From contig NC_080579.1 of NCBI RefSeq assembly GCF_029962835.1, forward strand, positions 80,617,959-80,681,958: 64,000 nucleotides of DNA, written 5' to 3'. This document shows, one piece after another, positions 18,761-61,216 of this stretch. The notes under the pieces were generated by a model. It had not been told where the DNA came from. It did not search any database and saw nothing but the letters and a program-made list of their open reading frames with translations. This stretch comes from Magnolia sinica (taxonomy: Eukaryota > Streptophyta > Magnoliopsida > Magnoliales > Magnoliaceae). The position numbers and the translations under genes are program-made. Position 1 is the stretch's first letter. Every line of letters starts with the position of its first letter.

Positions 18761-18829
18761 TTATTCGCATCACATTCATTCATGCATAAATACATATAAA
18801 CTTAACATCATAAACAAATATACAAAAAA

Positions 18830-24400: not shown

Positions 24401-25120
24401 ACTCTTTAGCCTTATCATGCTTTTTTCAATATAATAAACAATCATTTATATATGCATGTATGAGTTCATAACCAAGGCCCAAGTCTCGCATCAAGGATTT
24501 TGCCTCGTAATGAGACTTTGGCAATGTCTCACCATCCGATAATACTTCTTTCAACAACTCAAGCAACATGTCAAACGATTTATTACTCCAACGATTTATT
24601 ATCTTCAAATGAAGTAACTTTGTAAGAAAATTCAACTTGGAGAAGTTCTCATACCCCGGATAAAGTGGACGTTGTGCATCCCTCAACAACCTACTAAACT
24701 TTTCTGATTCGACATCACCCATTGGAGGAATATCTTGACTACTGCTTTTCACTACAAAATCAGTATCCGCAGCTGTTCCCCTGAACACTTCTCCTATGAT
24801 ATCTAACATTTCGTTAACGTCTTCATCCTCGTCATCCGGCACAATTGAGTCAGCAAGGACTTTAGTGGGCTCAACTTTATGGGTCATATCTTCACCATGA
24901 TAGATCCACCAAGTGTAACCCTGGTCAATCCCAACTATGAACAAATCGTCCTCTACTTTATCTAAAGTTTTATATATCATGTTCTTGCATTTTTGACATG
25001 GACACCTAATCCTATTCCTTGAATCTGCCCGATTTCGCGCAAATTCCATGAACTCTTGAACCCCTTGTTTATACTCTGGGCCAAACCTATTCTTAGCTCA
25101 CATCCAACTCTTATCCAAGT
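21414..25120 (-). pseudogene. TNP2-type CACTA transposase, nonsense-decayed
   Basis: Domains in order on the minus strand: Transpos_assoc with the zinc-binding CPCQKCKN (about 25015-24985); Transposase_21/TNP2 core (HPADSKAWQNFD, LPPWLYMKESFFMMSLLIPE, then NLDVMHIKKN near 23465); DUF4218 (PAFFDVMLHLAIHLLHEA, then ARSEGSIAEAYIDNECLTF); DUF4216 (ACGPDIRVSRYIGCIVNGIR, TTQNSGVVVKG); and an acidic Asp/Ser tail to 21414. An 89-bp intron is inferred at 22875-22787, with further donors near 22480 and 22310. The first exon visible starts after TTTTCATTGTAG at 25121. One frame runs from 25120 to 22876 without a frameshift but has in-frame stops at 25098, 24426, 24300, 24258, 23526 and 23472. Two more (21918, 21753) lie in the last exon. 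Most replace Trp, Gln or Arg. Confidence 0.88.
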
Positions 25121-25162
25121 CTACAATGAAAAGACTAAAGTCAGTTTACGAAAATAGCTTTA

Positions 25163-28100
25163 AGATTAGGCTAGGTTATAGGTTTAGGTTATATGTTTAA
25201 GTTTAGGGAATAGAGAATAGGTATAAGTTTAGGTTTAAGTTTAGGGAATTGAGTTGAGATTAGGATTAGGTGTAGGTTTAGGTTTAGGGATTTGAGTTTA
25301 GGTTATAGATTAGAGGTTATAGGTTATAGGTTATAGGTTTAGGTTAAGGTTATAAGCATAGGTTAAGGATATAGGTTAAGGTTTAGGTTTAAGTTATAAG
25401 TTTAGGTTTTGGGATTTGAGAATAGATTTAGGTTAAGGTTATAAGTTTAGGTTAAGGTTATAAGTATAGGTTATAGGTTAAGGTTATAGGTTAAGGTTAT
25501 AGTTTAGGTTAAGGTTATAATATAGGTTATAGGTTAAGGTTATAGTTTAGGTTAAGGTTATAAGTATAGGTTATAGGTTAAGGTTAATGTTTAGGTTTCA
25601 GTTATAGGTATAGGTTTTAGGATTTGAGAATAGGTTTAGGTTAAGGTTATAAGTATAGGTTAAGGTTATAGGTTATAGGTTATAGGTTTAGGTTAAGGTT
25701 AGGTTATAGGTTATAGGTTTGGGTTAAGGTTTAGGTTATAGGTTATAAGTATAGGTCATAGTTTAGGTTAAGGTTATAAGTATAGGTTAAAGGTTAAGGT
25801 TATAAGTATAGGTTATAGGTTAAGGTTAAGGTTTAGGTTTCGACCATAAGTATAGGTTTTGGGATTTGAGAATAGGTTTAGGTTAAGGTTATAAGTATAG
25901 GTTAAGGTTATAGGTTATAGGATATAGGTTTAGGTTAAGGTTAGGTTATAGGTTATAGGTTTGGGTTAAGGTTAGGTTATAGGTTATAAGTATAGGTTAT
26001 AGTTTAGGTTAAGGTCTAGGTTTAGGCTATAGGTATAGGATTTGAGATTTGAGAATTGGTTTAGGTTAAGGTTATAAGTTTAGGTTAAGGTTATGGGTTA
26101 TAGGGTTGGGTTAGGGTTTAGGTTATAGATTTAGGTTTAGGTTATAAGTGTAGGTCATAAGTTTAGGGAAAGGTTAGGTTTAGGTTATAGGTTTTGCGAT
26201 TTGAGAATAGTTTTCAATTATAAGTATAGGTTTAGGTTATAGGTTTATGTTTAGGTTATAGGTTATATGTTTAGGTTAAGGTTTAGGTTTAGGTTATGTG
26301 TTTTGGGATTTGAGAATAGGTTTAGGTGATAAGTATACGTTTATGTTGGGTTATAGGTTAAGGTTTAGGGATTTGAGAATACATTTAGGTTTTAGCTTTA
26401 GGTTATAGGTTTTGGGATTTGAGAATATGTTTAGGTTACAAGTTTAGGCTTAGGTTTAGGTTATAGGTTTAGGTTAAGGTCTAGGTTTAGGTTAAGGTTA
26501 TAAGTATAGGTTATAGTTTAAGGTTTAGGTTTATGAAATCGGATTCGGGTTCGGGGTCGGGTTTAGGTTATAGGTTTAGGTTTAGGTTTTAGGTTATAGG
26601 TTTAGGTCTAGGTTTATGTTATAAGTTTAAGTTTTGGGATTTGAAAATAGATTTAGGTTAAGGTTATAAGTTTAGGTTAATGTTATAAGTATAGGTTAAG
26701 GTTAAAGGTTATAGGTTATAGGTTTAGGTTAAGGTTAGGTTATAGGTTAAGGTTAAGGTTATAGGTTATAAGTATAGGTTATAGGTTAAGGTTAAGGTTA
26801 AGGTCTAGGTTTAGGCTATAAGTATAGGTTTAGGTTATAGGTTTTGGTTTTAGGTTATAGGTTTAGGTAAAGGTTTAGGTTTAGGTTATGGGTTTTGGGA
26901 TTTGAGAATAGGTTTAGGTTATAAGTTTAGGTTTAGGTTTATGTTATAGGTTTAGGTTAAAGTCTATGTTTAGGTTAAGGTTATAAGTATAGGTTATAGG
27001 TTAAGGTTTAGGTTTATGAAATCAGATTCGGGTTCGGGGTCGGGTTTAGGTTATAGGTTTAGGTTTAGGTTTTAGGTTATACGTGTAGGTCTAGGTCTAG
27101 GTTTATGTTATAAGTTTAGGTATTGGGATTTGAGAATAGATTTAGGTTAAGGTTTTAAGTTTAGGTTAAGGTTATAAGTATAGGTTAAGGTTATAGGTTT
27201 AGGTTAAGGTTAGGTTATAGGTTATAGGTTTAGGTTAAGGTTTAGTTTATATGTTATAAGTATAGGTTATAGGTTAAGGTTAAGGTCTAGGTTTAGGCTA
27301 TAAGTATAGGTTTAGGTTATAGGTTTCGGTTTTAGGTTATAGGTTTAAGTAAAAGTTTAGATTTAGGTTATGGGTTTTGGGATTTGAAAATAGGTTTAGA
27401 TGATAAGTATAGGTTTAGGTTGGGTTATAGGTTAAGGTTTAGGGATTTGAGAATCCATTTAGGATTTAGGTTTAGGTTATAGGTTTTGGGATTTGAGAAT
27501 AGGTTTAGGTTATAAGTTTAGGTTTAGGTTTAGGTTAAGGTCTAGGTTTAGGTTAAGGTTATAAGTATAGGTTATAGGTTAAGGTTTAGGTTTATGAAAT
27601 CGGATTTGGGTTGAGGATCGGGTTTAGGTTATAGGTTTAGGTTTTAGGTTTTAGGTTTTGGTTTAGGGTTAGGTTTAGGTTTTAGGTTATAGGTTTTGGG
27701 ATTTGAGAATAAGTTTAGGTTAAGGTTATAAGTATAGGTTATAGGTTAAGGTTAAGGTTTATGAAATCGGATTCGAGTTCGGGATCGGGTTTAGGTTATA
27801 AGTTTAGGTTTAGGTTATAGGTTATAGGTTTAGGTCTAGGTTTATGTTATAAGTTTAGGTTTTGAGATTTGAGAATAGATTTAGGTTAAGGTTATAAGTT
27901 TAGGTTAAGGTTATAAGTATAGGTTAAGGTTATAGGTTATAGGTTATAGGTTTAGGTTAAGGTTAAGTTATAGGTTATAGGTTTAGGTTAAGGTTTAGGT
28001 TATAGGTTAAGTATAGGTTATTGGTTAAGGTTAAGGTCTACGTTTAGGCTATAAGTATAGGTTTAGGTTATAGGTTTCGGTTTTAGGTTATAGGTTATAG

Positions 28101-31100
28101 GTTTAGGAATTTTAGAATAGGTTTAGGTTAAGGTTATAAGTATAGGTTAAGGTTATAGGTTATAGGTTATAGGTTTAGGTTAAGGTTTAGGTTTCGGCTA
28201 TAGGTATAGGTTTTGGGATTTGAGAATAGGTTTAGTTTAAGGTTATAAGTATATGTTATAGGTTATAGGTTTAGTTTAAGGTTAGGTTATAGGTTATAGG
28301 TTTAGGTTAAGGTTTAGGTTATAGGTTATAAGTATAGGTTATAGTTTAGGTTAAGGTCTAGGTTTAGGCTATAGTTATAGGTTTAGGGATTTGAGAATTG
28401 GTTTAGGATAAAGTTATAAGTATAGGTTATAGGTTAAGGTTAAGGTCTAGGTTTAGGTTATAAGTATAAGATTTGAGATTTGAGAATATGTTTAGGTTAA
28501 GGTTGTAGGTATAGGTTATAGGTTAAGGTTAAGGTTTAGGTTTTGGATATAAGTATAGGTTTTGGGATTTGAGAATAGGTTTAGGTTAAGGTTGTAGGTT
28601 TAGGTTATAGGTTAAGGTTAAGGTTTAGGTTATAGGTTAAGGTTAAGGTATAGGTTAAGGTTTAGGTTATAGGTTATAGGTTAAGGTTTAGGTTATAGGT
28701 TTTGGTTTAGGTTAAGGCTATAGGTTTTTATTTAGGTTTAGGTTTAGGTTTGAGGTTTAGGTTAGGGTTATAGGTTTAGGTTTAGGTTATAGGTTATAGG
28801 TTTGGGTTTAGGTTAAGGTTATAGGTTTTGGTTTAGGTTTAGGTCTAGGTTTTAGGTTTAGGTTAAGGTTATAGGTTTAAGTTATAGGTTTTGGTTTAGG
28901 CTTAGGTTATAGGTTTTGGTTTAGGTTAAGGTTATAGGTTTTGGTTTAGGTTTAGGTTTAGGTTTAGGTTAAGGTTATAGGTTTAAGTTATAGGTTTAGG
29001 TTAGGTTTAGGTTTAGGTTATAGGTTATAGGTTATAGGTTATAGGTTGTAGCTTTAGGGAATTGAGAATTGGTTAAGGATTAGGTTTAGGACACTAGGTT
29101 GGGGTTCGGGATCGAGTTTAGGTTTGGATTTTCAAGTTTAGGTTTATGTTTAGGTTAGGGAGTTGATATTAGGATTAGGTGTAGGTTTACGTTTAGGAAT
29201 TTGAGAATACATTTAGGTTTTAGGTTTTGGTTTAGGTTTTAGTTTATAGGTTTAGGTTATAGGTTTAGGTATAGGTTTTAGGTTTAAGTTAAGGTTAGGT
29301 TATAGGTTATAAGTTTAGGTTACAGGTTATAGGTTATAGGTTAAGGTATAGGTTATAGGTTTTGGTTTAGGTTAAGGCTATAGGTTTTGCTTTAGGTTTA
29401 GGTTTAGGTTTTAGGTTTAGGTTAGGGTTATAGGGTTAGGTTTAGGTTATAGGTTATAGCTTTAGGGAATTGAGAATAGGTCAAGGTTTAGGTTTAGAAA
29501 ATCGAGTTCGGGTTCGGGATCGGGTTTAGGTTTGGGTTTTCAAGTTTAGGTTTAGGTTTAGGCTAGGGAGTGGAGATTAGGATTAGATGTAGGTTTAAGT
29601 TTAGGGATTTGAGAATATATTTAGGTTTTAGGTTTAGGTTTAGGTTATAGGTTATAGGTTAAGGTTATAGGTTTAGGTTTAGGTTTTAGGTTTAGGTTAA
29701 GGTTAGGTTATAGGTTATAAGTTTCAGTTATAGGTTATAAGTTATAGGTTAAGGTTTAGGTTATAGGTTTTGGTTTAGGTTTAGGTTTAGGGTTAGGTAA
29801 TAGGTTATATGTTATAGGTTATAGCTTTACGGAACTGCGAATAGGTTAAGGTTTAGGTTTAGGAAATCGGGTTCGGGTTCGAGATCGGGTTTAGGTTTAT
29901 GTTATAAGTTTAGGTTTTGGGAATTGAGAATAGATTTAGGTTAAGGTTATAAGTTTAGGTTAAGGTTATAGTTTAGGTTAAGGTTATAAGTATAGGCTAT
30001 AGGTTAAGGTTAAGGTTTACATTTCGGCTATAGGTATAGGTTTTGGGATTTGAGAATAGGTTTAGATTAGGGTTATAAGTATAGGTTAAGGTTATAGGTT
30101 TAGGTTAAGGTTAGGTTATAGGTTATAGGTTTAGGTTAAGGTTTAGGTTTGGGTTTTCAAGTTTAGGATTAGGTTTAGGTTAGGGAGTTGAGATTAGGGT
30201 TAGGTGTAGGTTTAGGTTTTGGGATTTGAGAATACATTTAGGTTTTAGGTTTAGGTTTAGGTTCTAGGTTATAGGTTTAGGTTTAGGTTTATGTTTAGGT
30301 TCTAGGTTATAGGTTTGGGTTTAGGTTTAGGTTAAGGTATAGGTTTAGGTTTCGGTTTAGGTTATAAGCTATAGGTTTAGGGAATTGAGAATAGGTTAAG
30401 GTTTAAGTTTAGGAAATCGGGTTCGGGTTCGGGATCGGGTTTAGGTTTGGGTTTTCAAGTTTAGGTTTAGGTTTAGGTTAGGAAGTTGAGATTAGGATTA
30501 GGTGTAGGTTTAGGTTTAGGGATTTGAGAATACATTAGGTTTTAGGTTTAGGTTTAGGTTATAGGTTTAGGTTTAGGTTTAGGTTAAGGTATAGGTTTAG
30601 GTTTCGGTTTAGGTTATAAGCTATAGGTTTAGGGAATTGAGAATAGGTTAAGGTTAAGGTTTAGGAAATCGGGTTCGGATTCGGGATTGGGTTTAGGTTT
30701 GGGTTTTCAAGTTTAGGTTTAGGTTTAGGTTAGAGAGTTGAGATTAGGATTAGGTGTAGGTTTAGGTTTAGGGATTTGAGAATACAATAAGGTTTAGGTT
30801 TAGGTTTAGGGATTTGAGAATAGGTTTAGGTTATAGGTTTAGGTTTAGGTTTAGGTTATATGTTAAGGTTAAGGTTATAGGTTAAGTTTATAGGTTTAGG
30901 TTTAGGTTAGGTTATAGGTTTTTGGTTAAGGTTTAGGTTATAGTTATAGGTTTTGGGATTTGAGAATAGGTTTAGGTTAGGTTATAGGTTAAGGTTTAGG
31001 GAATTGAGTTTAGGTTATAGGTTCAGGTTATAGGTTATAGGTTTAGGTTATGGTTTAGGTTATAGGTTTTGGGATTTGAGGATAGGTTTAGGTTAGGTTA

Positions 31101-31228
31101 TAGGTTAAGGTTTAGGGAATTGAGTTTAGGTTATAGGTTCAGGTTATAGGTTATAGGTTTAGGTTATAGGTTTAGGTTGTAGTTATAAGTTTTGGGATTT
31201 GAGAATAGGTTTAGGTTATAGGTTAAGG
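25163..31228 (+). repeat. Telomere-like array A (G-rich strand on top), ~6.1 kb
   Basis: A near-continuous array of TTTAGG, TTATAGG, TTAAGG and GGTTTA variants fills this region, a diverged form of the plant telomere repeat TTTAGGG. Higher-order motifs recur irregularly: TTTGGGATTTGAGAATAGG, and a GAAATCGGGTTCGGG / TTCGGGATCGGG block (near 26534, 27018, 27600, 27770, 29500, 29870, 30415 and 30665). It begins directly upstream of the TNP2-type gene's first visible exon, whose acceptor is at 25121, so the array may lie in that gene's first intron or promoter region. It ends at GGTTAAGGGTGTGGTCCCTG, a junction repeated in inverse at array B. There are no ORFs of note. Confidence 0.97.
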
Positions 31229-31239
31229 GTGTGGTCCCT

Positions 31240-32093
31240 GCAAATACAGATATAAACACGGCCTACTCCAATTGGCCAGGCCCTTCCAATGCTGTCCATA
31301 GGAAATAAACATTTTCATCATAGTCATAACAGCGGTTCCCATCTTTCAGGGACCCCCTCTCAACATCCGAATAGCTCCGACGCACATCCGGGTCTACTCC
31401 ATTAATTTCAAGCAAATACAGATATAAACACGGCCTGCTTCAATTAGCCAGGCCCTTCCAATGCTGTCCATAGGAAATGGACTGCTTCATCATAGTCATA
31501 ACAGCGGTTCCCATCTTCCAGGGACTCCCACTCAACATCCGGATAGCTCCGACGCACATCCGGGTCTACTCCATTAATTTTAAGCAAATACAGATATAAA
31601 CACGGCCTGCTCCAATTGGCCAGGCCCTTCCAATGCTGTCCATAGGAAATGAACAGCTTCATCATAGTCATAACAGTGGTTCCCATCTTCTAAGGACCCC
31701 CGCTCAACATCCTAATAGCTCTGACGCACATCCGGTTCTACTCCATTAATTTCAAGCAAATACAGATATAAACACAGCCTGCTCCAATTGGCTAGGCCCC
31801 TCCAATGTTGTCTATAGAAAATGGACAGCTTCATCATGGTCATAACAAAGGTTCCCATCTTCCAGGGACCCTCGCTCAACATTCGGATAGCTCCGACGCA
31901 CATTCGGGTCTGCTCCATCAATTTCGAGCAAATACATAAACACAGCCTGCTTCAAATGGCCAGGCCCCTCTAATGTTGTCCATAGGAAATGCATAGCTTC
32001 ATCATAGTCATAACAGCGGTTCCCACCTTCCAAAGACCCCCGCTCAATATCCGGATAGCTCCGACGCACATCCGGGTCTGCTCCATCAATTTT
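31240..32093 (-). repeat. Five tandem copies of a 166-172-bp repeat with coding potential
   Basis: Copies start with GCAAATACAGATATAAACAC at 31240, 31412, 31584, 31756 and 31928. Spacing is 172 bp except for the shortened last copy. On the minus strand each reads as about 56 residues (RSYPDVERGSLEDGNRCYD, YDEAVHFLWTALEGPG, FMYLLEIDGADPDV), and one 258-bp stretch (32069-31812) stays open through 1.5 copies. I do not recognise the protein. The regular coding look suggests the unit derives from an exon that was amplified. Two inverted copies lie at 41880-42205 beside array B. Confidence 0.85.
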
Positions 32094-32875
32094 GAGATGA
32101 TATAATTAAATCCTAAATTAGTTACTCATCCAAGGTTGGATAGATTGTAATACTTTCATATTCCCACTTAAACGTCCACGACGAAAATCCGGCAGCATCT
32201 CCCCATGCCTCTCCGGATAAGTTGATCTTACGTTACATTTCGATGCCAAAAATCTTAAGCAATGTAAAGATATTTGGCATTGGATACGGAACGGAAGAAA
32301 CAGATCCAGAGAGAAACGAGGAGATGGACCGCAGATTAGGCATGAACATTTAAATAGATTATATGAAAGCATACTATCCATCTAACCTTGAACTCTCCAA
32401 AATGAGACAATTTGAGCGATTTCTATGCCACCAAAAACACACCATATCTATGTATGGCCCCATAGAAATCCTCAAACGAGTAACTAATTATCTAACTTAC
32501 AAATCTATAAATTACAAGTCACAACTATAAACTAACTAATCATAATAATAAGTCAAGACAAAAAAATGTAATTTACAAGACAATTAAGGTTTGCAACGAT
32601 AGAAATACACATTTTATCTTCATACTGAGAACAGAAATACAATGTTAAGTAAAGAAACATTTCTAACAAACTATTACGTGAAAGAAAAGCTCTAGAAGAT
32701 GAGAAAGTCCTCATGTATAATGCTACTATCAGCTACTTAAAACAAGAGATTTAATTCATATGCGAATGATAAATGTAAAATGAAGAGAAGGATGCCCGTT
32801 GCCGAGAGAGAGAGAGAGAGAGAGAGAGGTTCATATAAAAAATGAAGAGAATACATGTTCTAGTGCGCTGATCTT

Positions 32876-33065
32876 TGCATCATTACCACACATCCAAGTG
32901 GATTGATTTAAGCATCATAAACACATGTCCAAGTAGAGTAGACTGATTTAAGCATTGTAAACACATGTCCAAGTGGACTAATTTAAGCATCATAAATGCA
33001 TGTCCAAATGGAACTGATTTAAACATCATCAACACATGTTCAAGTGGGCTAATCTTAGCATCATT
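32876..33065. repeat. Minisatellite, ~45-bp unit
   Basis: Phrases such as CATAAACACATGTCCAAGT followed by GATTTAAGCATCAT recur about five times with small differences. Confidence 0.75.
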
Positions 33066-34210
33066 GCCTGAACTGTTTTGGGCCCACTAGGCTGTCCTAT
33101 GTGTCTTGCCACCTCTTGCCTTAGATCATGCAAGGAGGAGAAGAAAAAAAAGGAGGGAAAAAGCTATTTTCTAGGTCAAAATTGTGATTTACTCCAATCA
33201 CCTAGATCCACTTTCCCTAGAATGTGCAGAAAGCAAAGAATGGTTTGAAAGAGGAAAGCGAGTCCACCCAGAAATGCAAACCACATCTTTTAGTGCAAAA
33301 AAAGAAAAAAGAAAAAAGAAAAGGTCCTGTTTGGAACGAGGGAAATGAGAATATGAATTTAGCATATCTATAAACTTGTCAAATTCACAAGTTTGAATTA
33401 GATTTGGATTTGGCACATCCCAAGGTCAATTATTTGAAAATCAAGATAAAACCCATCGACTTTTAAGTATTTATTTTAATAGAATAAGGTTTATTACCTT
33501 TGAAGGTCATATTCCATAGATTTTTTCCCTTTTTGTTACTTAGATTTACATGAAATCCATGGGTTTATGGGTGTAGAATTTAAAAATCAAAGGATTTGAA
33601 ATGCTCCCAACAAAATACAAAATGGGGAGATTTGAAATCCACGGATTTCACATATCTCTGCCCCAAATCCCTCACCCCAAAGAACCCCTGAACACAAACC
33701 ATAGAAAATCCGTTTGTTGGGCTTTAGAAAAAAATATCACATTTCAATATATTTAATGCCAAGCACATATGCAACACACACTTAGGATGTGTGCTATTTG
33801 GGATCCCAAATGTCCATCATATGATCCCACGAGTCCATATGTCCTTATCCAAAAAATAATTTATCCACTCATCAGGTGACACATGCCTTGCGAACAAAAT
33901 GCTAAACATTTACCAAAACTAATCAGCTATTTGGAGAAGGTTCTTACTTAATCAACTACTTCAACTCAAAACTTCTGTTGCAGCACCCACAATTTCTGAT
34001 GCTGCAAAATAGTAACAAAAGAAGACCTGAGAATCTAAACTGTTGCTCTCTTGCATGATAATATGCTACAAACAAGCGTAACAAAATGAGGAAGGCTAGT
34101 AACAAAGTGACATAATAACAACAAAGAGAAGCTTATGAGATTTACATCTGCAGCATCGAAAACTTTACAAACACAACAAAAAGCACCCATATGACAGCAC
34201 CGACAAAAGC

Positions 34211-34264
<54 letters not shown>
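34211..34264. repeat. (CA)n microsatellite
   Basis: About 27 consecutive CA dinucleotides. Confidence 0.97.
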
Positions 34265-34267
<3 letters not shown>

Positions 34268-35197
34268 CCATTCCTTGGTAAATTATTATAACAGCAAAAG
34301 AAAGACATAAAACCATCGTGTTGATAATTTGCAACTTCATGTAAACCATAACGGATCATCAAATGTAGACTTTATAACATAAAGCCTCAGCGACTCAGTA
34401 TTTGGGCTAAATATCCCAAGGACATGCCAACCGTTTCACATGAAAAGTGTTTTTCACTTGTAAGTGGGTACTTCTCCAAATTCTAATTTCAAATGTCTCC
34501 TTTTGCTCAATAATGAAACTAATGAATCCTTGCTTATATACTTATTCATGAGCATTTAATTTGTAATCCGTGCAACTATGTCAGCTATAATTTCTGTAAA
34601 TTGCAAAATGGATTCAAAGTTGTGAAATTTTCTATTAGATTATGTGCTTGCACTTGAAATAAAAAAAATACATTCCTTACAGATCATTTTGTGGTCTTCT
34701 TTCTTTCACTTTATTCAATCATTCATGCACTTAATTTGTTGAGAAACTTCTTCTTCTTTTCTTTTTTTCAGGCAGTGGTACAGGGACTCTGCTGAACTGA
34801 GGAAAAATACCAATTAGGGATTTTTAATTTCGAGTTCCTCACCTCCAGACACGGTAAATGATGATCAACCATACAAAATCCCAATCTGGGATAGAGCTCC
34901 TCCAGAAATAAGGAATTACAAAAGCAGAAATACCAATTAGGGATTGAAAGTTCAAAAAGCCCCAATTAGGGATTTAGAATTTCAAAAATCCCTAATTTGA
35001 GATTTTCAATTTCGAAGCCCTATTAGAAAAAGAAAAAGAAGACAGAAGAGGAAGAGGAGAATACCACTGCCGCCGCTGAGAGAGAAAGCTGTTGGTCGTG
35101 AGGTTGCGAGCGAGAAGGAGATGGCGAGAGCGAGAAAGGATGAGGATTGCATGATGACCCTGCCACCAACGACCAGATGTGGATTGCGTGGTAGGGT

Positions 35198-35256
<59 letters not shown>

Positions 35257-35339
35257 GCACGTAAGAGAGAGAGAGAGTTTTAGGTTTGGGTTTTGGGAAG
35301 ATGGGTGTGTGCGGAAGGATTAGAAGGGATTTGGTTTTG

Positions 35340-35860
35340 GGGGGTGGTGGGCCCAAGATTTGGGGCAGGCGCTGGGAGAGTTGTGTGGGCCCCACCATAA
35401 TGCGTGTCAAACATCTACCCCATGAGTCAGATGCACCATTCCATGGTGGGCCCAAAGATTAAAAATCAAGTCAATTTATGAATTGTGTGTGCCACACCAC
35501 ATACAAAAGTTGAGAGGGGTTACCCTCCATTAAAACATTCATAATTATTTTTTGGGCCCACCGAGATGTGGTCCACAAATCCAGCCCATCCATTATGTGT
35601 GTACCACTTGGATGAGGGGTCATACCAAGTTTCAGACGCATCCAAATTTCAGGTGGGGCCCACACCGTGCTTTTATATGTTTTAGGCACATCTTCACATG
35701 ATTTTAGATGGTATGGCCCACCGGAGTTCCATATACGGCTGATTTTTGGGATATCCTATAATTTAAAGGGGACCCATCAAATGCATGGTGTTGATGTTTG
35801 GCACACATCATGGTGGGGCCCACCAGCATGGCACACGTGAGCTACATTCTACACACGCGT
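35340..35860. repeat. GTGGGCCC module inside the CACTA core
   Basis: In inverse orientation, 35590-35760 matches 4690-4850 of the LTR fragment: both contain a segment around GATGGTATGGCCCACC / GGTGGGCCATACCATC and the phrase TCACATGATTTTAGATGG in opposite senses. The module is therefore shared between the Tekay-type LTRs and the CACTA core. Confidence 0.65.
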
Positions 35861-37720
35861 GGGCCTTTGTTTCCAAAAATTGAACGGATCCAAATATCAG
35901 GTGGACCACATCTAAGGGAAATTGTGGTGTTGCCAGTCCATTTTGGTTCTAAAAATTGAACAGATCCAAATATCAGGTGGACCACATATAGGGGAAATTG
36001 TGTTGTTACCAGTCCATTCTAGGACGTGGTTCCACATCTAGGGGAAATTGTGGTGATCGAATGCTCACCATTAAAAACTTCCTAGGGGACTTGTGGAGTT
36101 GAATACCAACATGGAAATACCAATAATTTCACAATGGAATGCCAAAGTGCCACATTCATTAGGATGTGATGGGGACTTGTGGAGTTGAATTAAGCAAAGT
36201 AATTGCAATCACATGATCAAATTTAATAAAGAACAATATGAATTTATATAAAATAATTTCTTTCAAAAAAATCACGGCACAAAGCAATCATGTGATGAAA
36301 TTTTATCGATTAAAGCCCAAATAAGAAAATTTTATCTTTTTCTCTCTCTAAGTCTCTCTTAGCCATTAAGCATATTTTTCTCCTTACCTTAATTTCATTT
36401 ACACTTTTTTTATTTAAACCGAAACGAGAATAGAAACAATTCACGAGGAAACAGTGCAAATTGCGCAACATGTCAATCTGTAAGCTCGATCAATTGAAAT
36501 CCTTTAACTTGTTGACCAAAGTTTTCAACCTATTGAAAACACATTGGTTTGTCAGCTCACCAGACATTTCAGTGTTGGTTGCATGCGCAACATGCATATG
36601 CGGTTGCTATATAAAATCCGTGAACACCACCACTATAGAATCTTCCAATAGGATTAAAGTGAATCAAAAGCATCTCTAGTGAAATAAATATGATTACTTC
36701 AATAAGATATTCCTTTCATTTTTTCTTAATTTTATTTATGGTTGTTACTCACCTTTATCTCTGTAGAAGTGAGCATGATACGTTTTTTTTATTTTTTTCT
36801 CATCTAGCTCGTTGAACCGGACATGAGACTTTCTTCTCATCACGATCAATGCATCACAAATGGGATGATTAAATAATATTACAGAAGCACATTTATTAGA
36901 TAGAATGTAAAACCATATATTTTCTTATGGTTTCTCTGCAACATTAGTAGAACAAGCTATTTCTACAACTAGCTAGGCAGGTTTATCCTGAGCAATAAGA
37001 TGCCAAGGCACCCATCCTGTTTCCTGAAAACATTTCAGATAAGATATCAAAAAAAGGTCTGAGGGTACAGGTTGATGCTGGTAACTATATGATGTGATTC
37101 ACATATCCAACCCACTTATTATGTGTGTCCCACTTGGATGAGGGGTCAGACCAATTTTTAGCTGCATCCATCCATCCATTTTACCATATAAATTTAAATC
37201 TTGATCCCAAAAATGAAAAATATCCAAATATGAAATATCAAATGAACCACATAATAGGAAACAATATGAATTGAACTTCTACCATTGAAAAATCATTGGG
37301 GGCCATAGAAGTTTTGGATCAAGCTTATATTTGATTTTTCCATTCGTCCATGTTTGTATGATCTTATGAACATGTTGGTGTCAAATAAACATGACTGTGA
37401 GGTCTAGCAAGGTTTCAATGGTGGAAATCATTATTCCCACTGTTTCATGTGGTATGATTCACTTGAGCTCTGCATTTGCTTCAGTTTTGGTCTCAATCCC
37501 GTAAATAAGCTGAAAAAATGGATGGACAACATGGATTAATCATATACATTCATCGTGGGCCAATTGAGTTTACTCGGTACAGTAAAAGATCTGATTTCCT
37601 TGTCAATAGGTTGGATGGTAAATTGGATTGAGTACTGAGTTACTCGGTATTTTAGTTTTCCCTTCATCTATGTATTTGTGATCTATTGAACAGGTTGGAT
37701 GATAAATAAAAATCACTATA

Positions 37721-38200
37721 TGTCATGCCCCAAACTCGGAAACTGGGCTCACAAAATTCTCGATCGCCAAATCTAGCACCGACAGCCTCCGTAGAACCTC
37801 ATTCTCGGCTCCCAGTGCCCATTCACCAGGTTCCGATCTTGGGATGCTACGAGGAGGATTTTTCAACATCAGTTTAATTCGTAATAAGCATAACTAAAGG
37901 CATAACCCACAAACAACAACCAAAAACTTTATTGTATTTCCCTTTATACTCATTGTACTTTTAAAGTTTTTGATCATAGTGAAAATGTGATGGAGTTTTT
38001 AGTTGTTGTTTGTGGGTTATGCCTTTGCTTATGCTTATTACGAATTAAACTGATGTTGAAAAATCCTCCTCGTAGTATCCTAGGATCAGAACCTGACGAA
38101 TGGGCGCTGGGAGCCGAGAATGGGGTTATACGGAGGCTGTTGGCGCCGGATTCTGTGATCAGGAATTTTGTGAGCCCGGTTTTGAGTTTGGGGCGTGACA
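37721..38200. mobile_element. 480-bp palindromic insertion made of two Tekay-type LTR 3' ends
   Basis: It starts TGTCATGCCCCAAACTC and ends GAGTTTGGGGCGTGACA, flanked by CTATA at 37716-37720 and 38201-38205. The right arm (about 37928-38200) follows the last ~275 bp of the Tekay LTR. The left arm (37721 to about 37927) is the last ~205 bp of the same LTR inverted. The spacer between arms is itself LTR sequence (TTTTTGATCATAGTGAA). So two 3' LTR ends face outward, with a gypsy-sized TSD. Confidence 0.85.
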
Positions 38201-38756
38201 CTATAGGCTATAGGAAATTTCAATGGTGGAAATCATTATTCCCACTGTTTCCTGTGGTATGGTCCACTTGAGCTTGGGATATGCTTTAATTTTGGGCTCA
38301 ACCACCAAATTAAGAGAGAGCTTTGGATATGCTTTAATTTTGGATAGCACATAAGACATAGACTGCTCTAATCTTTGGAATATCTCTTCAAGTGGGCCAC
38401 ATTGGATGGCCCACTGTTATGAAATCACACTGCTTTCTTCAGTGTCGTGTAATTTAATATCGCGGAATTCTTGGGATGTGGAATGCCAATATGGCCATTT
38501 ATGTGATGGTAATTCACTTGGACGTGAAATGCCCAAAAAATATCTCAGATTTAATGTTTTAACCTTTGATTATATAAAGGTTATCCATTTTCAAAACAAA
38601 ATAGATATATCATAGGTTTGAAATAATCCAATTTGAGGCTTTTTTTTTTCTTCCTATACACATCCCCAATGTACTAATCTAATAAACATTTGAATCATTG
38701 GAACACTATACATATCCAAATGTTAAAGTTCAATATATCACATGGGCATCCAAGAG
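38201..38756. other. CACTA core: no recognisable gene
   Basis: AT-rich sequence between two inserted palindromes. It contains repeated short phrases such as GGATATGCTTTAATTTTGG twice near 38275-38345. No gene seen. Confidence 0.5.
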
Positions 38757-39293
38757 GGAAATGGATTGGCTACTGCCCCTAACACCATACCCGTGGCTGG
38801 TGGTCGATGCTCTATGGGTCCCACCATGATGTATGTGTTTCATCCATACCGTCCATACATTTTTACATATCATATTAGGGCTTGATACCAAAAATGAGAG
38901 GTATATAAATCTCAGGTGGACCACACCACATGAAAACAAAGTGATTGGATATTCACCATTAAAACCCTCCTAAGGCCCACTGTACTTTTTATTTGACATC
39001 CAATCTGTTGATTAGGTCATACAGGCCCAGATGAAGGGAAAAAATTATCAGATTGATCCAAAACTTTACATGGTCCCCAAAAGGTTTTTAATGATCGACG
39101 CTCATTTAACATTATTTCCTATAATGTGGTCCATTTGAGATTGGTATATACCTCATTTTTTGTCTCATACCATAAAATGATATGGAAAAATAGATAGACA
39201 GTAGGGATGAAACACATACATCATGGTGAGGCCCACAGAGCACCAACCACCAGCCCTTGCGCTGGTGTCAGTGCGAGTAGCCAATCCGTTTCC
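38757..39293. mobile_element. Fold-back (long-TIR) non-autonomous DNA element, ~537 bp
   Basis: The left end GGAAATGGATTGGCTACT matches the inverted right end GGAAACGGATTGGCTACT. The arms then run on as an imperfect inverted repeat through a GGTCCCACCATGATGTATGT-type core, CATCCATACCGTCC and AAAATGAGAGGTATATA, almost to the centre (about 39000). It encodes no protein. A clear TSD is not resolved (AAGAG occurs next to both ends, offset by one base). The arms carry the GTGGGNCCCACCATGATG motif scattered elsewhere in the window, so this family is a plausible source of those modules. Confidence 0.65.
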
Positions 39294-40687
39294 TAAGAGA
39301 GAGACTTCAAGTCTCTCTCTCTCTCTCTGTGTCCTCTCTCACTCTCTCAATCTCTCTCTCTCCCACTCTCGCGCACCCTCTCTCTCTCTCTCGGCCCTCT
39401 CTCAACGGCGCCCTCTCTCTTTGTCTCTCTGTCTCTCCTAGTGCTCTCTCTCACTCTCGCGCACCCTCTCTCTCTCTCTCTTGGTCCTCTCTCAACCGCA
39501 CCCTCTCTCTCACGCACCCTCTCTCTCTCTCTCCTCAGAGCTCGGGAACCCTATTTTCGGCCTGGACTCGTGATCGGGGCTCCAACTCAAATAGGAAGTT
39601 GTTCTCTTCCTGCTGCAAACTCAGTTGACTGTGAGCTATCTCTCTCTCTTTCTCAATCTCTCTCAATCTTGATTGAAACTAGTTGGGGATTTAGGGATTA
39701 AGGGATTTGGGAACTTAGGGATTTGGGGATTTAGGGATTTAGGGAGTTGGGTCTAATACACAGCTGAACCTAAGAAGTCCAAAATAGCTGATAGAATGTT
39801 GAGAAAATATTTGATCCCTGACCCAAAGTTAATGCAGGGTAATCAGGTTTTCAGTTTGTATAAGTGGGGCCATGGTTCACTGATCCAGATCATCGGTTTG
39901 TTGTGCTGTGGATGGTGCACCATGGATGCACCAAACTAAAAAAATCTCCTAAGATTGAGAGATCTTAGCCACCAATCTGTAGCCCTTTTCAGTGAATGTG
40001 GATAGTTCCTCTTCAATGCATATAACTGATGGATATCTTAATCACTCAAGCTGAACCTTAGCTGCTAAAAATAGTAGGAAGTGGGTGTGGCAGTGGATGC
40101 AGAAACTAGTAGTAAATAACCATTTTCAAGCCCAAAGTTTGTAGGAATTGTGAGATTATGAAGCAAGAAAAAATGGTAGAAGATTTTATTTTTTTGCAAC
40201 TATAGGGTGAGCTACAACACAACAGATGAATATATATATCTTGGCAACGAACATGACATGTAGATAGGATGAAATTTCTGTTTTTGAACTAGAACGACAT
40301 GCTTTTTGTTTTTTGGATGATAGATTATGAAATATGATAAGGTCACATAGAAGTGAATGAAGGGAAAAATATAAATATTAGCTTGATGACGTCAAGCAGT
40401 TTTAAGCAGTAGGCAATCAATCCCCACTATTTATGTGGTGTAGTCTTCTTGAGCATATGTGATTTGAATAGTGGTTGGAATTTCTTCAATCTTAGATCTA
40501 TTTCGTGATATTTCTCTTCAGATCTGCATATGTGATTTGAATAGTGGTTGGAATTTCTTTCATTTTTAGTTTTTTTTACTTGAATTTTGTTGAGATGGTT
40601 AGCATTGGATTCTTAATTGAATAAACTTCCCTGGATCTATTGATTTGATTTTGTTTTCACTTTTGATTTTTTTGATATTTTCATTCT
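39294..40687. other. CACTA core, right part
   Basis: Long interrupted CT-rich tracts at 39311-39535 (with CGCGCACCCTCTCTC repeats) are followed at 39683-39751 by a short GGGATTTAGGGATTTAGGG-like run. That run is the only place in the window where the motif is close to true TTTAGGG spacing. A 40-bp phrase (GATTTGAATAGTGGTTGGAA) is duplicated at about 40463 and 40535. No gene recognised. Confidence 0.55.
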
Positions 40688-41062
40688 GATCTATAACCTA
40701 AACTTATAACCTTAACCTAAACTTAAAACCAAATAAACTAAAACCTAAACTTAAACCTAAACCTAAACCTATAACCTAAACCAAAACCTATAACCTTAAC
40801 CTAAACCAAAACCTATAACCTAAACCTTAACTTATAACCTATAACCTATAACCTATAACCTAAACTTATAACCTTAACCTAAACTTAAAACCAAAACCTA
40901 AACCTATAACCTAAACCTATAAGCTAAAACCTAAACCTAAACCTAAAACCTAAATGTATTCTCAAATCCCTAAACCTAAACCTACACCTAATCCTAATCT
41001 CAACTCCCTAACCTAAACCTAAACGTATACTTGAAAACCCAAGCCTAAACCTGATCCCGAAC
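40688..41062 (-). repeat. Telomere-like block (C-rich strand on top), ~375 bp
   Basis: CCTAAA/CCTATAA/CCTTAA units, with the TATTCTCAAATCCC and AACCCGAACC higher-order motifs of the main arrays, form a short detached block separated from array B by 41063-42210. Confidence 0.93.
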
Positions 41063-41879
41063 CCGAACCTGATTTTTTAAATTTTAGTTAGTTGTCCAAA
41101 TGATTCCTGAACTTTTATTGAAAATGATACTCTTGTCATTCAATATTCAAAACCTTTGCCCGTACTCCAGATTTTTTTATTCAGTAGCTCAGTCAGGTCA
41201 ATGGTAAGCTCACCAACTTCATCAAAGAATCACAGATTAGAAGGGAGTCAATCAGATAGTTTCTTTAATTTTCTTTTTTCATCATAAATTGATACTGAGT
41301 TTAAACCAGCCATTACATTCTTTGGCACATATATTTTTAACTGTGGAAAACAGTCTTAGAATCTCCATCATGCTATATATATGTAGTTTCTCTTTCACTT
41401 GTGAATTTATTTCTCTACCTAGTTTTAAAACTAATGAGTTCTTTGTACTAATTTCATGTAACATCTCTTGGTATCATCAGATTTTGCCTCCATGCAGTAA
41501 CATCTACTGAAATGGTTGTTTCAGTATGAACATGAGCACAGCCAATGGTCGGCCATTATCTCTTTGGGACTGATATCAAGTTGTTTACATGCAATGGATT
41601 CAAGACAAATTCCAAATCATCATCGGACTTCTTGAGGTACATACTGGTCCATGCATACATACAAATGCCAACATCATTGTCGTCATTATCATTGACATCA
41701 CCCGACTGTGTATGGTCGCTTAACTTGTTCTTAATGTTACTACAGATTTCTCAAACCTTATATAGTGAGACAGTTCAGCAAGTTCCACTTTTTCTCAAAT
41801 TGAATTTGAAACCTTCAGTCTATAGAAGAGGAAGCAACCAAATTGTTGTAATTCTAATGATGTTTCCATAATGTGCATC
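41063..41879. other. Non-array spacer between telomere-like blocks
   Basis: AT-rich sequence with a 108-codon open frame (41545-41871, plus strand) that has no recognisable domain or repeat relation. I see no reason to call it a gene. Confidence 0.45.
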
Positions 41880-42205
41880 GGATGAAGACCCGGATGTGCG
41901 TCGGAGCTATCCGGATGAGCGGGTTCCCTGGAAGGTGGGAACCGCCGTTATGACCATGATGAAGCTGTCCATTTCCTATGGACAGCATTGGAGGGGCCTG
42001 ACCATTTGGACAGGCCGTGTTTATGTATTTGCTTGAAATTAATGGAGCAGACCCGGATGTGCGTCGGAGCTATCCGGATGAGCGGGTTCCCTGGAAGGTG
42101 GGAGCCATTGTTATGACCATGATGAAGCTGTCCATTTTCTATGGACAGCATTGGAAGGGCCTGACCAATTGGAGCAGGCCGTGTTTATATCTGTATTTGC
42201 AGGGA
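41880..42205 (+). repeat. Two inverted copies of the 163-172-bp repeat
   Basis: ACCCGGATGTGCGTCGGAGC occurs at 41888 and 42051. The block is the reverse complement of the repeat at 31240-32093 and ends TCTGTATTTGCAGGGACCAC, the exact inverse of the junction at array A. Confidence 0.9.
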
Positions 42206-42210
42206 CCACA

Positions 42211-45200
42211 CCCTTAACCTATAACCTAAACCTATTCTCAAATTTAAAAACCTATAACTACGACCTAACCTATAACCTATAACCTGAACCTATAACCTAA
42301 ACTCAATTCCCTAAACCTTAACCTATAACCTAACCTAAACCTATACTTATAACCTAAACCTATTCTCAAATCCCAAAACCTATAACCTAAACCTTAACCT
42401 AAACCTATAACCTATAACCTAAACTCAATTCCCTAAACCTTAACCTATAACCTAAACCTATTCTCAAATCCCAAAACCTATAATTATAACATAAACCTAA
42501 ACCTAAACCTATAACCTATAACCTAAACCCAAACCTAAACCCAATCTCGAACCCGAACCCGATTTCCTAAACCTAAACCTTAACCTATAACCTAAACCTA
42601 AACCTTAACCTATAACCTAAACCTATACTTATAACCTTAACGTAAACCTATTCTCAAATCCCAAAACTTATACTTATAACCTAAACCTAGACCTTAACCT
42701 TAACCTAGAACCTATAATTATAACCTTAACCTAAACTTACAACCTTAGCCTAAACCTAAACTTAACCTAAACTCAAATCCCTAAACTTTAACCTATAACC
42801 CAACCTAAACATATACTTATAACCTAAACCTATTCTCAAATCCCAAAACCTATACTTATAACATAAACTTAAACCTAAACCTATAACCTATAACCTATAA
42901 CCTAAACCCAAACCTAAACCCGATCTCGAACCCGAACCCGATTTCCTAAACCTAAACCTAAACCTAAACCTAAACCTTAACCTATAACCTAAACCTATAC
43001 TTATAACCTTAACCTTAACCTAAACCTATTCTCAACTCCCAAAACTTATACTTATAACCTAAACCTTAACCTATAACCTAAACCTATTCTCAAATCCCAA
43101 AACCTATAATTATAACATAAACCTAAACCTAAACCTATAACCTAAAACCTAAACCCAAACCTAAACCCAATCCTGAACTCGAACCCGATTTCCTAAACCT
43201 AAACCTTAACCTATAACCTAAACCTATACCTATAACCTAAACCTAAACCTTAACCTATAACCTAAACCTATACTTATAACCTTAACCTAAACCTATTCTC
43301 AAATCCCAAAACTTATACTTATAACCTAAACCTTAACCTATAACCTAAACTTTTTCTCAAATCCCAAAACCTATAATTATAGCATAAACCTAAACCTAAA
43401 CCTATAACCTATAACCTAAAACCTAAACCCAAACCTAAACCCAATCCCGAACCTGAACTCGATTTCCTAAACCTAAACCTTAACCTATAACCTAAACCTA
43501 TACCTATAACCTAAACCTAAACCTTAACCTATAACCTAAACCTATTCTCAAATCCCAAAACTTATACTTATAACCTAAACCTAGACCTTAACCTTAACCT
43601 ATAACCTATAATTATAACCTTAACCTAAACTTACGACCTTAACCTAAACTTAAACCTTAACCTAAACTCAAATCCCTAAACCTTAACCTATAACCCAACC
43701 TAAACCTATACTTATAACCTAAACCTATTCTCAAATCCCAAAACCTATACTTATAACCTAAACTTATACCTTAACCTAAACTCAAATCCCTAAAGCTTAA
43801 CCTATAACCCAACCTAAACCTATACTTATAACTTAAACCTATTCTTAAATCCCAAAACCTGTACTTATAACCTAAACCTAAACCTTAACCTAAACTCAAA
43901 ACCTATAACCTTAACCTAAACCAAAACCGATAACCTAAACCTTAACCTATAACCTATAACCCAATAACCTAAAATTATAACCTTAACCTAAACCTAAAAC
44001 CAAAACCTAAACCTATAAACTAAAACCAAAACCTAAACCTAAACCTAAAACCTAAATGTATTCTCAAATCCTTAAACCTAAACCTTAACCTATTCTCAAT
44101 TCCCTAAACCTTAACCTATAACCTAACTTAAACCTAAACCTATAACCTACACTTATAACCTAAAACCTAATGTATTCTCAAATCCCTAAACTTAAACCTT
44201 AACCTATTCTCAATTCCTTAAACCTTAACCTATAACCTAACTTAAACCTAAACCTATAACCTACACTTATAACCTAAAACCTTAATGTATTCTCAAATCC
44301 TTAAACATATACCTACACCTAATCCTAATCTCAACTCCTTAACCTAAACCTAAACTTAAAAACCTAAACCTAAACCCGATTCCGATCCCGAACCCAAACC
44401 GAATTTCCTTAACCTAAATCTTAACCTATTCTCAATTCCCTAAAGCTATAACTTATAACCTAAACCTAAACCTAAAACCTAAAACATATACCTAAATCTA
44501 AAACCTAAATGTATTCTCAAATCCTTAAATGTAAACCTACACCTAATCCTAATCTCAACTCCCTAACCTAAACCTAAACCTAAACTTGAAAACCCAAACC
44601 TAAACCCGATCCTGAACCCGAGCCCAATTTCTCAAACCTAAACCTTAACCTATTCTCAATTCCCTAAAGCTATAACCTATAACCTATAACCTAAACCTAA
44701 ACATAAACCTTAACCAAAACCTATAACCTAAACCTTAACCTATAACCTATAACCTATAACCTATAACCTAAACCGAAACCTAAACCTAAACCTAAACCTA
44801 AACCTATAACCTATAACCTAAACCTAAACCTAAACCTTAACCTAAACCTAAACCTAAACCTAAAACCTAAACCTTAACCTTAACCTAAACCTAAACCTAT
44901 AACCTAAACCTATAAACTAAAACCGAAAGCCTAAATGTATTCTCAAATCCCTAAACTTAAACCTACACCTAATCCTAATCTCAACTCCCTAACCTAAACC
45001 TAAACTTAAACTTGAAAAGCCAAACCTAAACCCGATCGCTAACCCGAACCTGATTTCCTAAACCTAAACCTTGACCTATTCTCAATTCCCTAAAGCTATA
45101 ACCTATAACCTAAACCTAAACCTAAACCTATAACCTTAACCTAAACTTAAAAACTAAACCTAAACCTAAAGCAAAACCTATAAACTTAACTTAAACCAAA

Positions 45201-46980
45201 ACCTATAACCTAAACCTTAACCTATAACCTATAACCTGTAACCTAAACTTATAACCTATAACCTAACCTTAACCTAAACCTAAAACCTAAACCTAAACCT
45301 ATAAACTAAAACCTAAACCAAAACCTAAAACCTAAATGTATTCTCAAATTCCTAAACGTACACCTACACCTAATCCTAATTTCAACTCCCTAACCTAAAG
45401 TTAAACTTAAAAACCCAAACCTAAACCCGATCTCGAACCCCAACTCGATGTCCTAAACTTAAACATTAACCTATTCTCAATTCCCTAAAGCTACAACCTA
45501 TAACCTATAACCTATAACCTAAACCAAAACCTAACCTAAACCTATAACTTAAACCTATAACCTTAACCTAAACCTAAAACGTAAATCTAAACCTAAACCT
45601 AAACCAAAACCTATAACCTTAACCTAAACCAAAACCTATAACCTAAACCTATAACCTTAACCTAAACCTAAAACCTAAACCTAAACCAAAACCCAAACCT
45701 ATAACCTAAACCTAAACCAAAACCTATAACCTTAAGCTAAACCTAAACCTTAACCTATTCTCAATTCTCTAAAGCTATAACCTATAACCTATAACCTATA
45801 ACCTAAACCTAAACCTAAAACCTAAACCTAAACCTAAACCTAAACCTAAAACCTAAATGTATTCTCAAATCCCTAAACCTAAACCTTAACCTATTCTCAA
45901 TTCCCTAAACCTTAACCTATAACCTAACTTAAACCTAAACCTATAACCTACACTTACAACCTAAAACCTAAATGTATTCTCAAATCCCTAAACCTAAACC
46001 TTAACGTATTCTCAATTCCTTAAACCTTAACCTATAACCTAACTTAAACCTAAACCTATAACCTACACTTATAACCTAAAGCCTAAATGTATTCTCAAAT
46101 CCCTAAACCTAAACCTACACCTAATCCTAATCTCAACTCCTTAACCTAAACCTAAACTTGAAAACCCAAACCTAAACCCGATCCCGAACCCAAACCCGAA
46201 CCCGAATTCCTAAACCTAAATCTTAACCTATTCTCAATTCCCTAAAGCTATAACCTATAACCTAACTTAAACCTAAACCTATAACTGACACTTATAACCT
46301 AAACCTATAACCTAAATGTATTCTCAAATCCCTAAACCTACACCTACACCTAATCCTAATCTCAACTCCTTAACCTAAACCTAAACTTGAAACCCCAAAC
46401 CTAAACCTGAACCCGAACCCGATTTCCTAAGCATAAATCGTAACCTATTCTCAATTCCCTAAACCTTAACCTATAACCTAACTTAAACCTAAACCTATAA
46501 CCTACACTTATAACCTAAACCTAAACTTATAACCTAAACCTAAAACCTAAATGTAATCTCAAATCCCTAAACCTAAACCTAAAACCTAAATGTAATCTCA
46601 AATCCCTAAACCTAAACCTACACCTAATCCTAATCTCAACTCCCTAACCTAAACCTAAACCTAAACCTAAACTTGAAAACTGAAACCTAAACCCGATACC
46701 GAACCCGAACCAGAACCTGATTTCTTAAACCTAAACCTTAACCTATTCTCAATTCCCTAAAGCTATAACCTATAACATAAACCTAAACATAAACCTAAAT
46801 CTAAACCTAAACCTATAACCTAAACCTAAACCTTAACCTAAACCTAAACCTATAACCTTAACTTAAACCAAAACTTATAACCTAAACCTTTACCTATAAC
46901 CTATAACCCATAACCTATAACCTAAACTTATAACCTACAACCTACCTTAATCTAAACCTAAAACCTAAACCTAAACCTAT
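42211..46980 (-). repeat. Telomere-like array B (C-rich strand on top), ~4.8 kb
   Basis: Mirror image of array A: CCTAAA, CCTATAA and CCTTAA units with CCTATTCTCAAATCCC and AACCCGAACCCGATTTCC motifs recurring, here together with TAAATGTATTCTCAAATCCC and ACCTAATCCTAATCTCAACT variants. It starts at the shared junction GGGACCACACCCTTAACC near 42205. It is somewhat shorter than array A. Confidence 0.97.
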
Positions 46981-47018
46981 AAGTGTAGGTTATAGGTTTT
47001 AGGTTTAGGTTAAGGTTG
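46981..47018 (+). repeat. Orientation switch at the end of array B
   Basis: After CCTAAACCTATAAG the sequence flips to TGTAGGTTATAGGTTTTAGG and continues GTTTAGGTTAAGG for about 33 bp before unique sequence, giving a small head-to-head palindrome centred near 46980. Confidence 0.85.
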
Positions 47019-47078
47019 TTTTTCTTTTTATTTGTCTAGATCACCTCTCATATGTTCTCTCTCTTTTCATTTGTTTTT

Positions 47079-48150
47079 TCCCATAAGATTGTTTGTGTTT
47101 GGATGGATGCAGATTATGTTTGGATGAATGTAGTTTATGTCCGGATGAATTTACGTAGTTTGGGTTTAGATGGATGTGAATGTGAATATGATGAAATATA
47201 TTATATAATAGGTGTATATCAGGAAGAATATGATGAATTATATTCTAACAGGTGTATATTAGGAAATTTGAGATGGAATATTTTTTTTAAAAAAAGAGAC
47301 TTTTACCTACGAAATATTTCATAGGTAAAAGTGTTTTTTAGCGATGCATATTTTCGTCGCTAACAGTCCTATCCAGGTTTTTCTAGCTACGAAAATTTTT
47401 GTCGCTAAAAGTAATCCATTGCAAAGTCTTTAGCGACGAAAATATTCGTCGCTAAAAGTCTCATCTAGGATTTTTAGCTACGAAAATTTTTGTAGCTAAA
47501 AGTAATCCATTCCAATTTTTTGAAAATTTGTTTGTAGCCTTTAGCGATGAAAATACTCGTCGCTAAAAGTCTCATCCAGGATTTTTAGCTATGAAAATTT
47601 TCGCAGCTAAAAGTAATCCATGCCAATTTTTTGAAAATTTGTTTACAGCCTTTGGCGACGAAAATATTCGTCGTTAAAAGTCTCATCCAGGATTTTTAGC
47701 TACGAAAATTTTCATAGCTAAAAGTAAGTCATTCGAATATATTGAAAAATTGTTTGCAGCCTTTGACGATGAAAATTTTTGTCGCTAAACGTCTCATCCC
47801 TGATTTTTAGCTACGAAAATTTTCGTAACTAAAAGTAATCCATTCCAATTTTTTGAAAACTTGTTTGTTGCCTTTGGCGATGAAAAGATTCGTCGCTAAA
47901 AGTCTTATTAAGGGTTTTATCCATTCGAATTTTTTTAAAAATTGTTTATAGCCTTTAACGATGAAATTTTTTGTCGCTAAAAGTCTCATCCACGATTTTT
48001 AGCTGCGAAAATATTTGTCGCTAAAAGTTTCATCGCTAAAAGTCACTTTTAGCGACGAAATAAAATTTCATTGCTAAAAGTGACTTTTAGCGACGAAAAG
48101 TTATTTCGTCGCTAAAAGTTTCATCGCTAAAAACCCTCTTTCTTGTAGTG
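47079..48150. repeat. CACTA right terminal inverted repeat (~1.07 kb) with subterminal palindromes
   Basis: The inner part (47080-47285: GTGTTTGGATGGATG, AGATGGATGTGAATGTGAAT, ATAATAGGTGTATATCAGGA) is the inverse of 18590-18760. Outward, TTTTAGCGACGAAAA/TTTTCGTCGCTAAAA units recur about every 60 bp to 48130, with the TTTTTAGCTACGAAAATTTT variant frequent. It ends CTTTCTTGTAGTG. Confidence 0.88.
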
Positions 48151-60741: not shown

Positions 60742-61216
60742 TCATGTACTCATCAGTATGATTCCACATTTCTCTGGCCTTGCATTCTAAGCACGCTTAT
60801 ATTGTGCACATACTTACACCACCCTCTAAGCTTTCTATAAGCTTATGCACGATTGATGCGTGCAAGTGACGCCAGGACACAGTCGTAGCCTTATCACAGT
60901 TGGAGTGTGCAGCCAAGCTTTTGGAGTTTCTATTATTATCATTATCTTGTATTTCCCTTCATATGCACTATATTCAAAGTTTTTTATCATAATGGATTTT
61001 GTGATGGTGTTCCTGTGGTTATTGTTCGTGGGTTATGCTTATGGTTATGCTTGTACAGAATCAAAATCATGTTTGAAATCCTCCTTTTAGGATCCTAGGA
61101 TCGAAACCTGGTGTATGGGTGCCGGGAGCCAAGAATGGGGTACTATGGAGGCTGTCAGCGCTGGATTCGGCGATCGGGAATTTTGTGAGCCCGGTCTCCG
61201 AGTTTGGGGTGTGACA

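Follow-up and report, generated by a model that had tools for sequence, protein, structure and literature searches.

Giant retroelements associated with telomere repeats, the Terminons of rotifers, are found at chromosome ends. In plants, the closest described system is a DNA transposon, the C. quinoa CACTA element Jozin, which carries a 5.55-kb satellite array within an element of 16.5 kb; three more elements contain the same satellite (PMC8978399), and FISH places it dispersed along Chenopodium chromosomes (PMC8978399). Transposition has also been named as a possible means by which interstitial telomeric-like repeats spread (PMC8621592). In those parts of the open-licence literature that were consulted, Magnolia genome papers included, no array-bearing CACTA element of Magnoliaceae was found.

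The locus considered here lies in a window of 64,000 nucleotides of Magnolia sinica DNA (the window being the whole stretch that was analysed). Its arrays are located inside terminal inverted repeats (TIRs) and a target-site duplication (TSD), and their junctions and junction pairs recur in the genome. Very probably, the degenerate TTTAGG-type minisatellite of these arrays is a built-in passenger of Magnolia CACTA elements, its cassette being present as an inverted pair in the window's subfamily.

Structure of the element

A complete CACTA (En/Spm) element of 30,345 bp extends from 17806 to 48150, flanked by the TSD GTG at 17803-17805 and 48151-48153. Its TIRs read CACTACAAAAAATACC from 17806 and TTCTTGTAGTG to 48150. 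The flank that the element splits is a repeat present elsewhere in the window, where three paralogous copies of the flank keep the uninterrupted (empty) site. TSD and empty sites together therefore show that the 30,345-bp unit was inserted as one piece. The attributes of a CACTA element are all found: terminal CACTA...TAGTG inverted repeats (at 17806 and 48150), a 3-bp TSD with empty site, subterminal repeats that are both direct and inverted, and a Tnp2-type transposase (PF13963, PF02992, PF13960). The frame of the latter is interrupted in the window copy; Transpos_assoc, Transposase_21 and DUF4218 lie in separate minus-strand ORFs, so that this tnpD is broken. The ORF with 45-bp tandem repeats (Table 1) is possibly a second CACTA gene.

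Table 1. Features of the array-bearing CACTA element, by position in the window
Feature	Position	Strand	Evidence
Left subterminal repeats, TTTTAGCGACGAAAATTTTCGTCGCTAAAA type, family a	17806..18583	.	TRF and end comparison
P' block, inverted homologue of P near right end	18617..18820	-	Sequence comparison
ORF, 45-bp tandem repeats, coiled-coil-like by eye	18992..19453	-	No Pfam match
tnpD remnant, DUF4218 in two pieces	22474..23471	-	PF13960
tnpD remnant, Transposase_21	23526..24257	-	PF02992, E 7.3e-98
tnpD N-terminal Transpos_assoc	24426..25097	-	PF13963, E 1.4e-20
Left junction, tnpD/array	24940..25175	.	421 candidates, 40 scored at 94-100%
Left telomere-like array, G-rich on +, 6.06 kb	25163..31228 (TRF 25172-31228)	+	TRF, unit count
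Inner ~172-bp tandem repeat, left arm, 5 copies	31240..32092	-	TRF
Spacer with dispersed repeats	32097..41885	.	4 ORFs put to Pfam
Third array fragment, 0.38 kb	40691..41070	-	TRF, unit count
Inner ~163/172-bp tandem repeat, right arm, 2 copies	41886..42200	+	TRF
Right telomere-like array, C-rich on +, 4.77 kb	42207..46983 (TRF 42215-46982)	-	TRF, unit count
Short palindromic flip, outer tip of right array	46944..47016	.	Sequence comparison
Right junction, array/CACTA end	46950..47200	.	791 candidates, 40 scored at 94-100%
P block	47083..47261	+	Also found at 4/10 sampled loci: R1, R4, R7, R9 (family b)
Right subterminal repeats, family a	47335..48132	.	TRF and end comparison

The G-strand units of the arrays are mainly TTTAGG, TTATAGG and TTAAGG. 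These three are counted 503 times in the left array and 404 times in the right, and at most 7 times per 6,066-bp stretch of the window outside the arrays (sampled every 500 bp, both strands). A sequence-only reading of the window had placed opposed arrays of 6.1 and 4.8 kb strictly between CACTA ends, and TRF, unit counts, TSD and empty sites all agree with that placement.

Each array has the ~172-bp repeat on its inner side, joined to it through one identical short junction. One cassette is thus common to both arms, its orientation reversed between them. The arrays themselves do not align in register: the best alignment of left with right is an off-register one, at 75%, and the register is scrambled, so that the common origin of the arms rests on the cassette borders. 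(Colinear homology of the arms was considered and rejected. An in-register alignment at 73% over 5.4 kb is no better than off-register alignments, and is therefore left out as evidence.) The arms resemble each other no more than they resemble the array of a further locus, Y1. The junction between ~172-bp repeat and array has 2,869 candidate places genome-wide, 40 of which were scored. The repeat has a reading frame that is open in part, with no Pfam match, and none of the four spacer ORFs searched against Pfam scored above cut-off. The palindromic flip at the tip of the right array has an opposite-strand match at every one of 40 scored copies.

Some other features of the window may be recorded. 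A type-P1 twister ribozyme (RF03160; score 73.1 bits, gathering score 67.2) lies at 3517-3582 on the plus strand, outside the CACTA element; an Rfam scan at gathering scores gave no match inside it. Copies of a single repeat occupy 5420-7049, 7889-9584, 16026-17805 with 48151-48953, and 58585-61216; two orientations are represented among the four, and the CACTA insertion splits one copy.

Recurrence of junctions and junction pairs

The genome searched comprises 1,838,573,281 bases in 127 contigs, and TTTAGG repeated four times occurs in it 19,243 times. With up to 3 mismatches allowed, a 34-mer of the left junction is found at 288 places and a 35-mer of the right junction at 156; reversed controls are found at none. 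The array directly adjoins tnpD in all five fetched copies of the left junction, the window excluded.

The junctions also recur in pairs. Among the matches listed, at least 16 pairs, including that of the window, have the window's orientation and lie within 60 kb, with distances between the paired junctions of 8.5-49.5 kb. (What pairing means operationally is that 107 left and 108 right places were taken in: the best 100 of 288 and the best 100 of 156, with 7 left and 8 right places added from the scored junction copies.) Random placement, with random strands and the highest position seen taken as the contig end, gives an expectation of 0.23 oriented pairs and a maximum of 4 in 3,000 trials. 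Both arms have been read through in the window alone, and the other 15 pairs are known by their junctions. That the CACTA element carries two opposed arrays and has moved with them, as had been proposed from the window's sequence, is supported by the return of the junction pair, in matching orientation, at these 15 other places.

One of the pairs was read in part (the C13 copy, in stretches ~13 kb apart). It has the array beside tnpD on its left side and, ~21.3 kb further, the ~172-bp repeat, an opposite-orientation array of 11.2 kb (against 4.8 kb for the right array of the window), and then a right end that is 94.9% identical to the window's over 335 bp. The window spacer and the 6.6 kb read at the corresponding place in this copy are not colinear. 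The pairs on C9 and C1 have the ~172-bp repeat between their junctions, oriented as predicted. Two further pairs within 60 kb (C2:9635588/9639975 and C12:34632634/34640447) lack the right geometry; 0.71 such pairs are expected by chance. Their right and left junctions are 4-8 kb apart, and they are perhaps rearranged or neighbouring elements.

An inverted pair could also have come about at this site only, by opposite nesting of two independent array-bearing elements. That the arms resemble each other no more than the Y1 array is compatible with such an event, as are ten loci elsewhere whose arrays run in a single direction over the 20-30 kb read, but 15 other places show the outer junction pair again, oriented consistently, and a single TSD with empty sites belongs to the unit as a whole. 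A unique nested event is disfavoured by the recurrent junction pairs and must be regarded as improbable. Least credible of all is an assembly artefact in which a long-read misjoin brought repeats together: the arrays are highly repetitive and the M. sinica assembly was built with ONT reads (PMC10999834), but a misjoin would have to be reconciled with a perfect TSD and empty sites, with identical junctions at hundreds of places, and with the different array length of the C13 copy.

On the preferred reading of the array as a built-in passenger, the cassette (~172-bp repeats plus array) would be present twice, in inverted orientation, between one element end and tnpD in the window's subfamily. 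The inverted pair would have arisen once, by inverted duplication or by ancestral nesting, and then multiplied, the arrays moving as cargo through CACTA transposition and probably lengthening or shortening by slippage or unequal exchange.

Array loci in other CACTA families

Array loci elsewhere were sampled at 10 of 23 clusters. The clusters had been delimited by eye among the first 100 matches, all within 22.5 Mb of the start of C1; the ten loci (R0-R9) were picked before their flanks were inspected. CACTA subterminal clusters lie within 7 kb of the array at all ten, and there are none in first-order Markov shuffles or in the window outside the element. Five of the loci (R1, R2, R4, R7, R9) belong to family b, of GACGGTC type, and five (R0, R3, R5, R6, R8) to family c, of GCTACGGATT type. 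Three are exceptional in some respect: R2 has a cluster on the inner side only, R0 is without terminal CACTA, and the cluster of R4 is 6.4 kb off. Each locus has its array in a single orientation within the 20-30 kb read. Arrays are common in this genome. Were they common without CACTA ends, that would speak against the proposal that the element carries them; since all ten sampled loci have CACTA subterminal repeats, this is not the situation in the sample. At the further locus Y1, where a different insertion interrupts the array, 20 kb of sequence showed no CACTA end.

Complete family-c elements with matching TSDs are found at R3 (ACC), R5 (ACA) and R8 (TAC). Both end types are present at R1, R7 and R9 of family b, with a matching TSD at none of the three; the unlike ends of these loci read CACTACGTGAAAAATGG and CACTA[CT]GCCAAAA. 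The ~172-bp repeat is present at five of the ten loci (R0, R5, R6, R8, R9), and R9 has a different gene order (Transpos_assoc, repeat, array, end). The unmatched TSDs of family b, the patchy distribution of the ~172-bp repeat, the R9 gene order, the locus Y1 and the two ill-oriented junction pairs all weigh against the passenger reading. The shared borders make it likely that the arrays of families a, b and c have one origin.

Resemblance to telomere repeats

TTTAGGGTTTAGGG does not occur in any of the three arrays of the window, and the telobox, AAACCCTA, occurs once in the left array (6.1 kb) and not at all in the right (4.8 kb) or the third. Plant telomeres are recognized by tandem TTTAGGG (which is the general plant repeat and perhaps not Magnolia's own), and telobox/TRB sites by AAACCCTA in number; neither is found. 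The resemblance to telomeres is therefore one of the unit only. Of the initial description, the repeat units and their opposite orientation hold, and a telomere identity is not supported: the unit differs from plant TTTAGGG, there is no TTTAGGGTTTAGGG, and one telobox is all that the arrays contain. By the same counts, the suggested binding of telomere-repeat proteins seems not to be a likely function.

Real interstitial telomere DNA, a relic of chromosome fusion or of insertion at a break, and only later hit by a CACTA element, would account for a telomere-like unit, and telomere-like interstitial repeats are widespread in seed plants (PMC8621592). The counts just given oppose this origin, as do two further findings: hundreds of places share identical array borders, and all ten sampled loci have CACTA subterminal repeats no more than 7 kb away. 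A true telomere origin was rejected on unit and telobox counts, and the probability left to this history is very small.

The passenger reading has consequences of its own. The seeding of dispersed telomere-like repeats, one of the roles suggested at the outset, fits the data, and the element is a concrete vehicle for such repeats in a plant genome. The sampled repeats travel inside CACTA elements rather than mark chromosome fusions; because they are CACTA-borne, their in situ signals on Magnolia chromosomes could be mistaken for ancestral telomeres.

The tnpD leader and a possible hairpin

The left array lies upstream of the tnpD start region, at a distance of ~65 bp. The window and the five fetched copies all have, directly upstream of tnpD, a sequence that resembles a branch point with acceptor (CTGAC..CATTGTAG). 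Transcription from the right end into tnpD would yield an RNA with the G-rich array ahead of its C-rich complement, in which a long hairpin could form. For 120-nt segments drawn at random from the two arrays, taken as transcribed, the computed pairing energy averages -104.8 kcal/mol; the corresponding value is -52.9 with Markov shuffles, and it is -36.0 within the spacer (n=40 for each), so that array-array pairing energy is about twice the shuffle value. Hairpin RNA from the opposed arrays is thus energetically possible by this calculation, and the inverted pair may possibly have a hairpin or intron role.

It is a further step to suppose that the inverted pair is under selection, with a hairpin in the tnpD leader aiding the splicing of a giant first intron or yielding dsRNA and siRNAs. 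This supposition, which is compatible with the passenger explanation, would draw on the position of the arrays between right end and tnpD, on the acceptor-like stretch just before the gene in the window and five copies, and on the pairing energies; however, any inverted tandem repeat would pair likewise, and in families b and c the arrays at the ten loci sampled run one way only. Selection of this kind is accordingly rated unlikely, and so is its more specific form, in which a kilobase hairpin would feed siRNAs or keep a first intron, tens of kilobases long, together. If it were true, the transposon would regulate itself through telomere-like repeats while dispersing them genome-wide. Whatever the role, recurrent kilobase-scale tandem arrays, inverted and placed ahead of a transposase gene, make a natural test set for hairpin RNA, splicing and silencing.

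Comparison with known systems

With the window, R3, R5 and R8 taken together, there are four complete array-bearing Magnolia elements with a TSD. Like the Terminons, these are large mobile elements associated with telomere-type repeats; the Magnolia case is one of a DNA transposon with internal arrays. Like the interstitial telomeric-like repeats of seed plants, the Magnolia arrays resemble telomeres and lie within chromosomes (PMC8621592). The seed-plant repeats have been reviewed from molecular cytogenetics (PMC8621592), whereas the sampled Magnolia arrays are tied to CACTA elements and their unit is not TTTAGGG. A CACTA element as the source of kilobase arrays also has a counterpart in the Chenopodium 40-bp satellite, the monomer of which comes from tnp2 coding sequence (PMC7320549); for the Magnolia unit no coding source was found.

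The nearest relative in kind is Jozin, likewise a CACTA element with Transposase_21 and a tandem array (PMC8978399). An array-bearing CACTA element is therefore already known, since C. quinoa elements carry a satellite array (PMC8978399), and the Magnolia elements share with that type a kilobase tandem array within the element ends, in multiple copies. In Jozin, the monomer is 171 bp and one array lies near the 3' end, with no inverted pair mentioned in the account as consulted (PMC8978399); in the window both arrays are 5' of tnpD. Unlike Jozin, the Magnolia element has a telomere-like unit of 6-7 bp, two opposed arrays before tnpD, and junctions at hundreds of places. New here are the likeness of the unit to telomere repeats, the placing of two opposed arrays ahead of tnpD, and the copy number.
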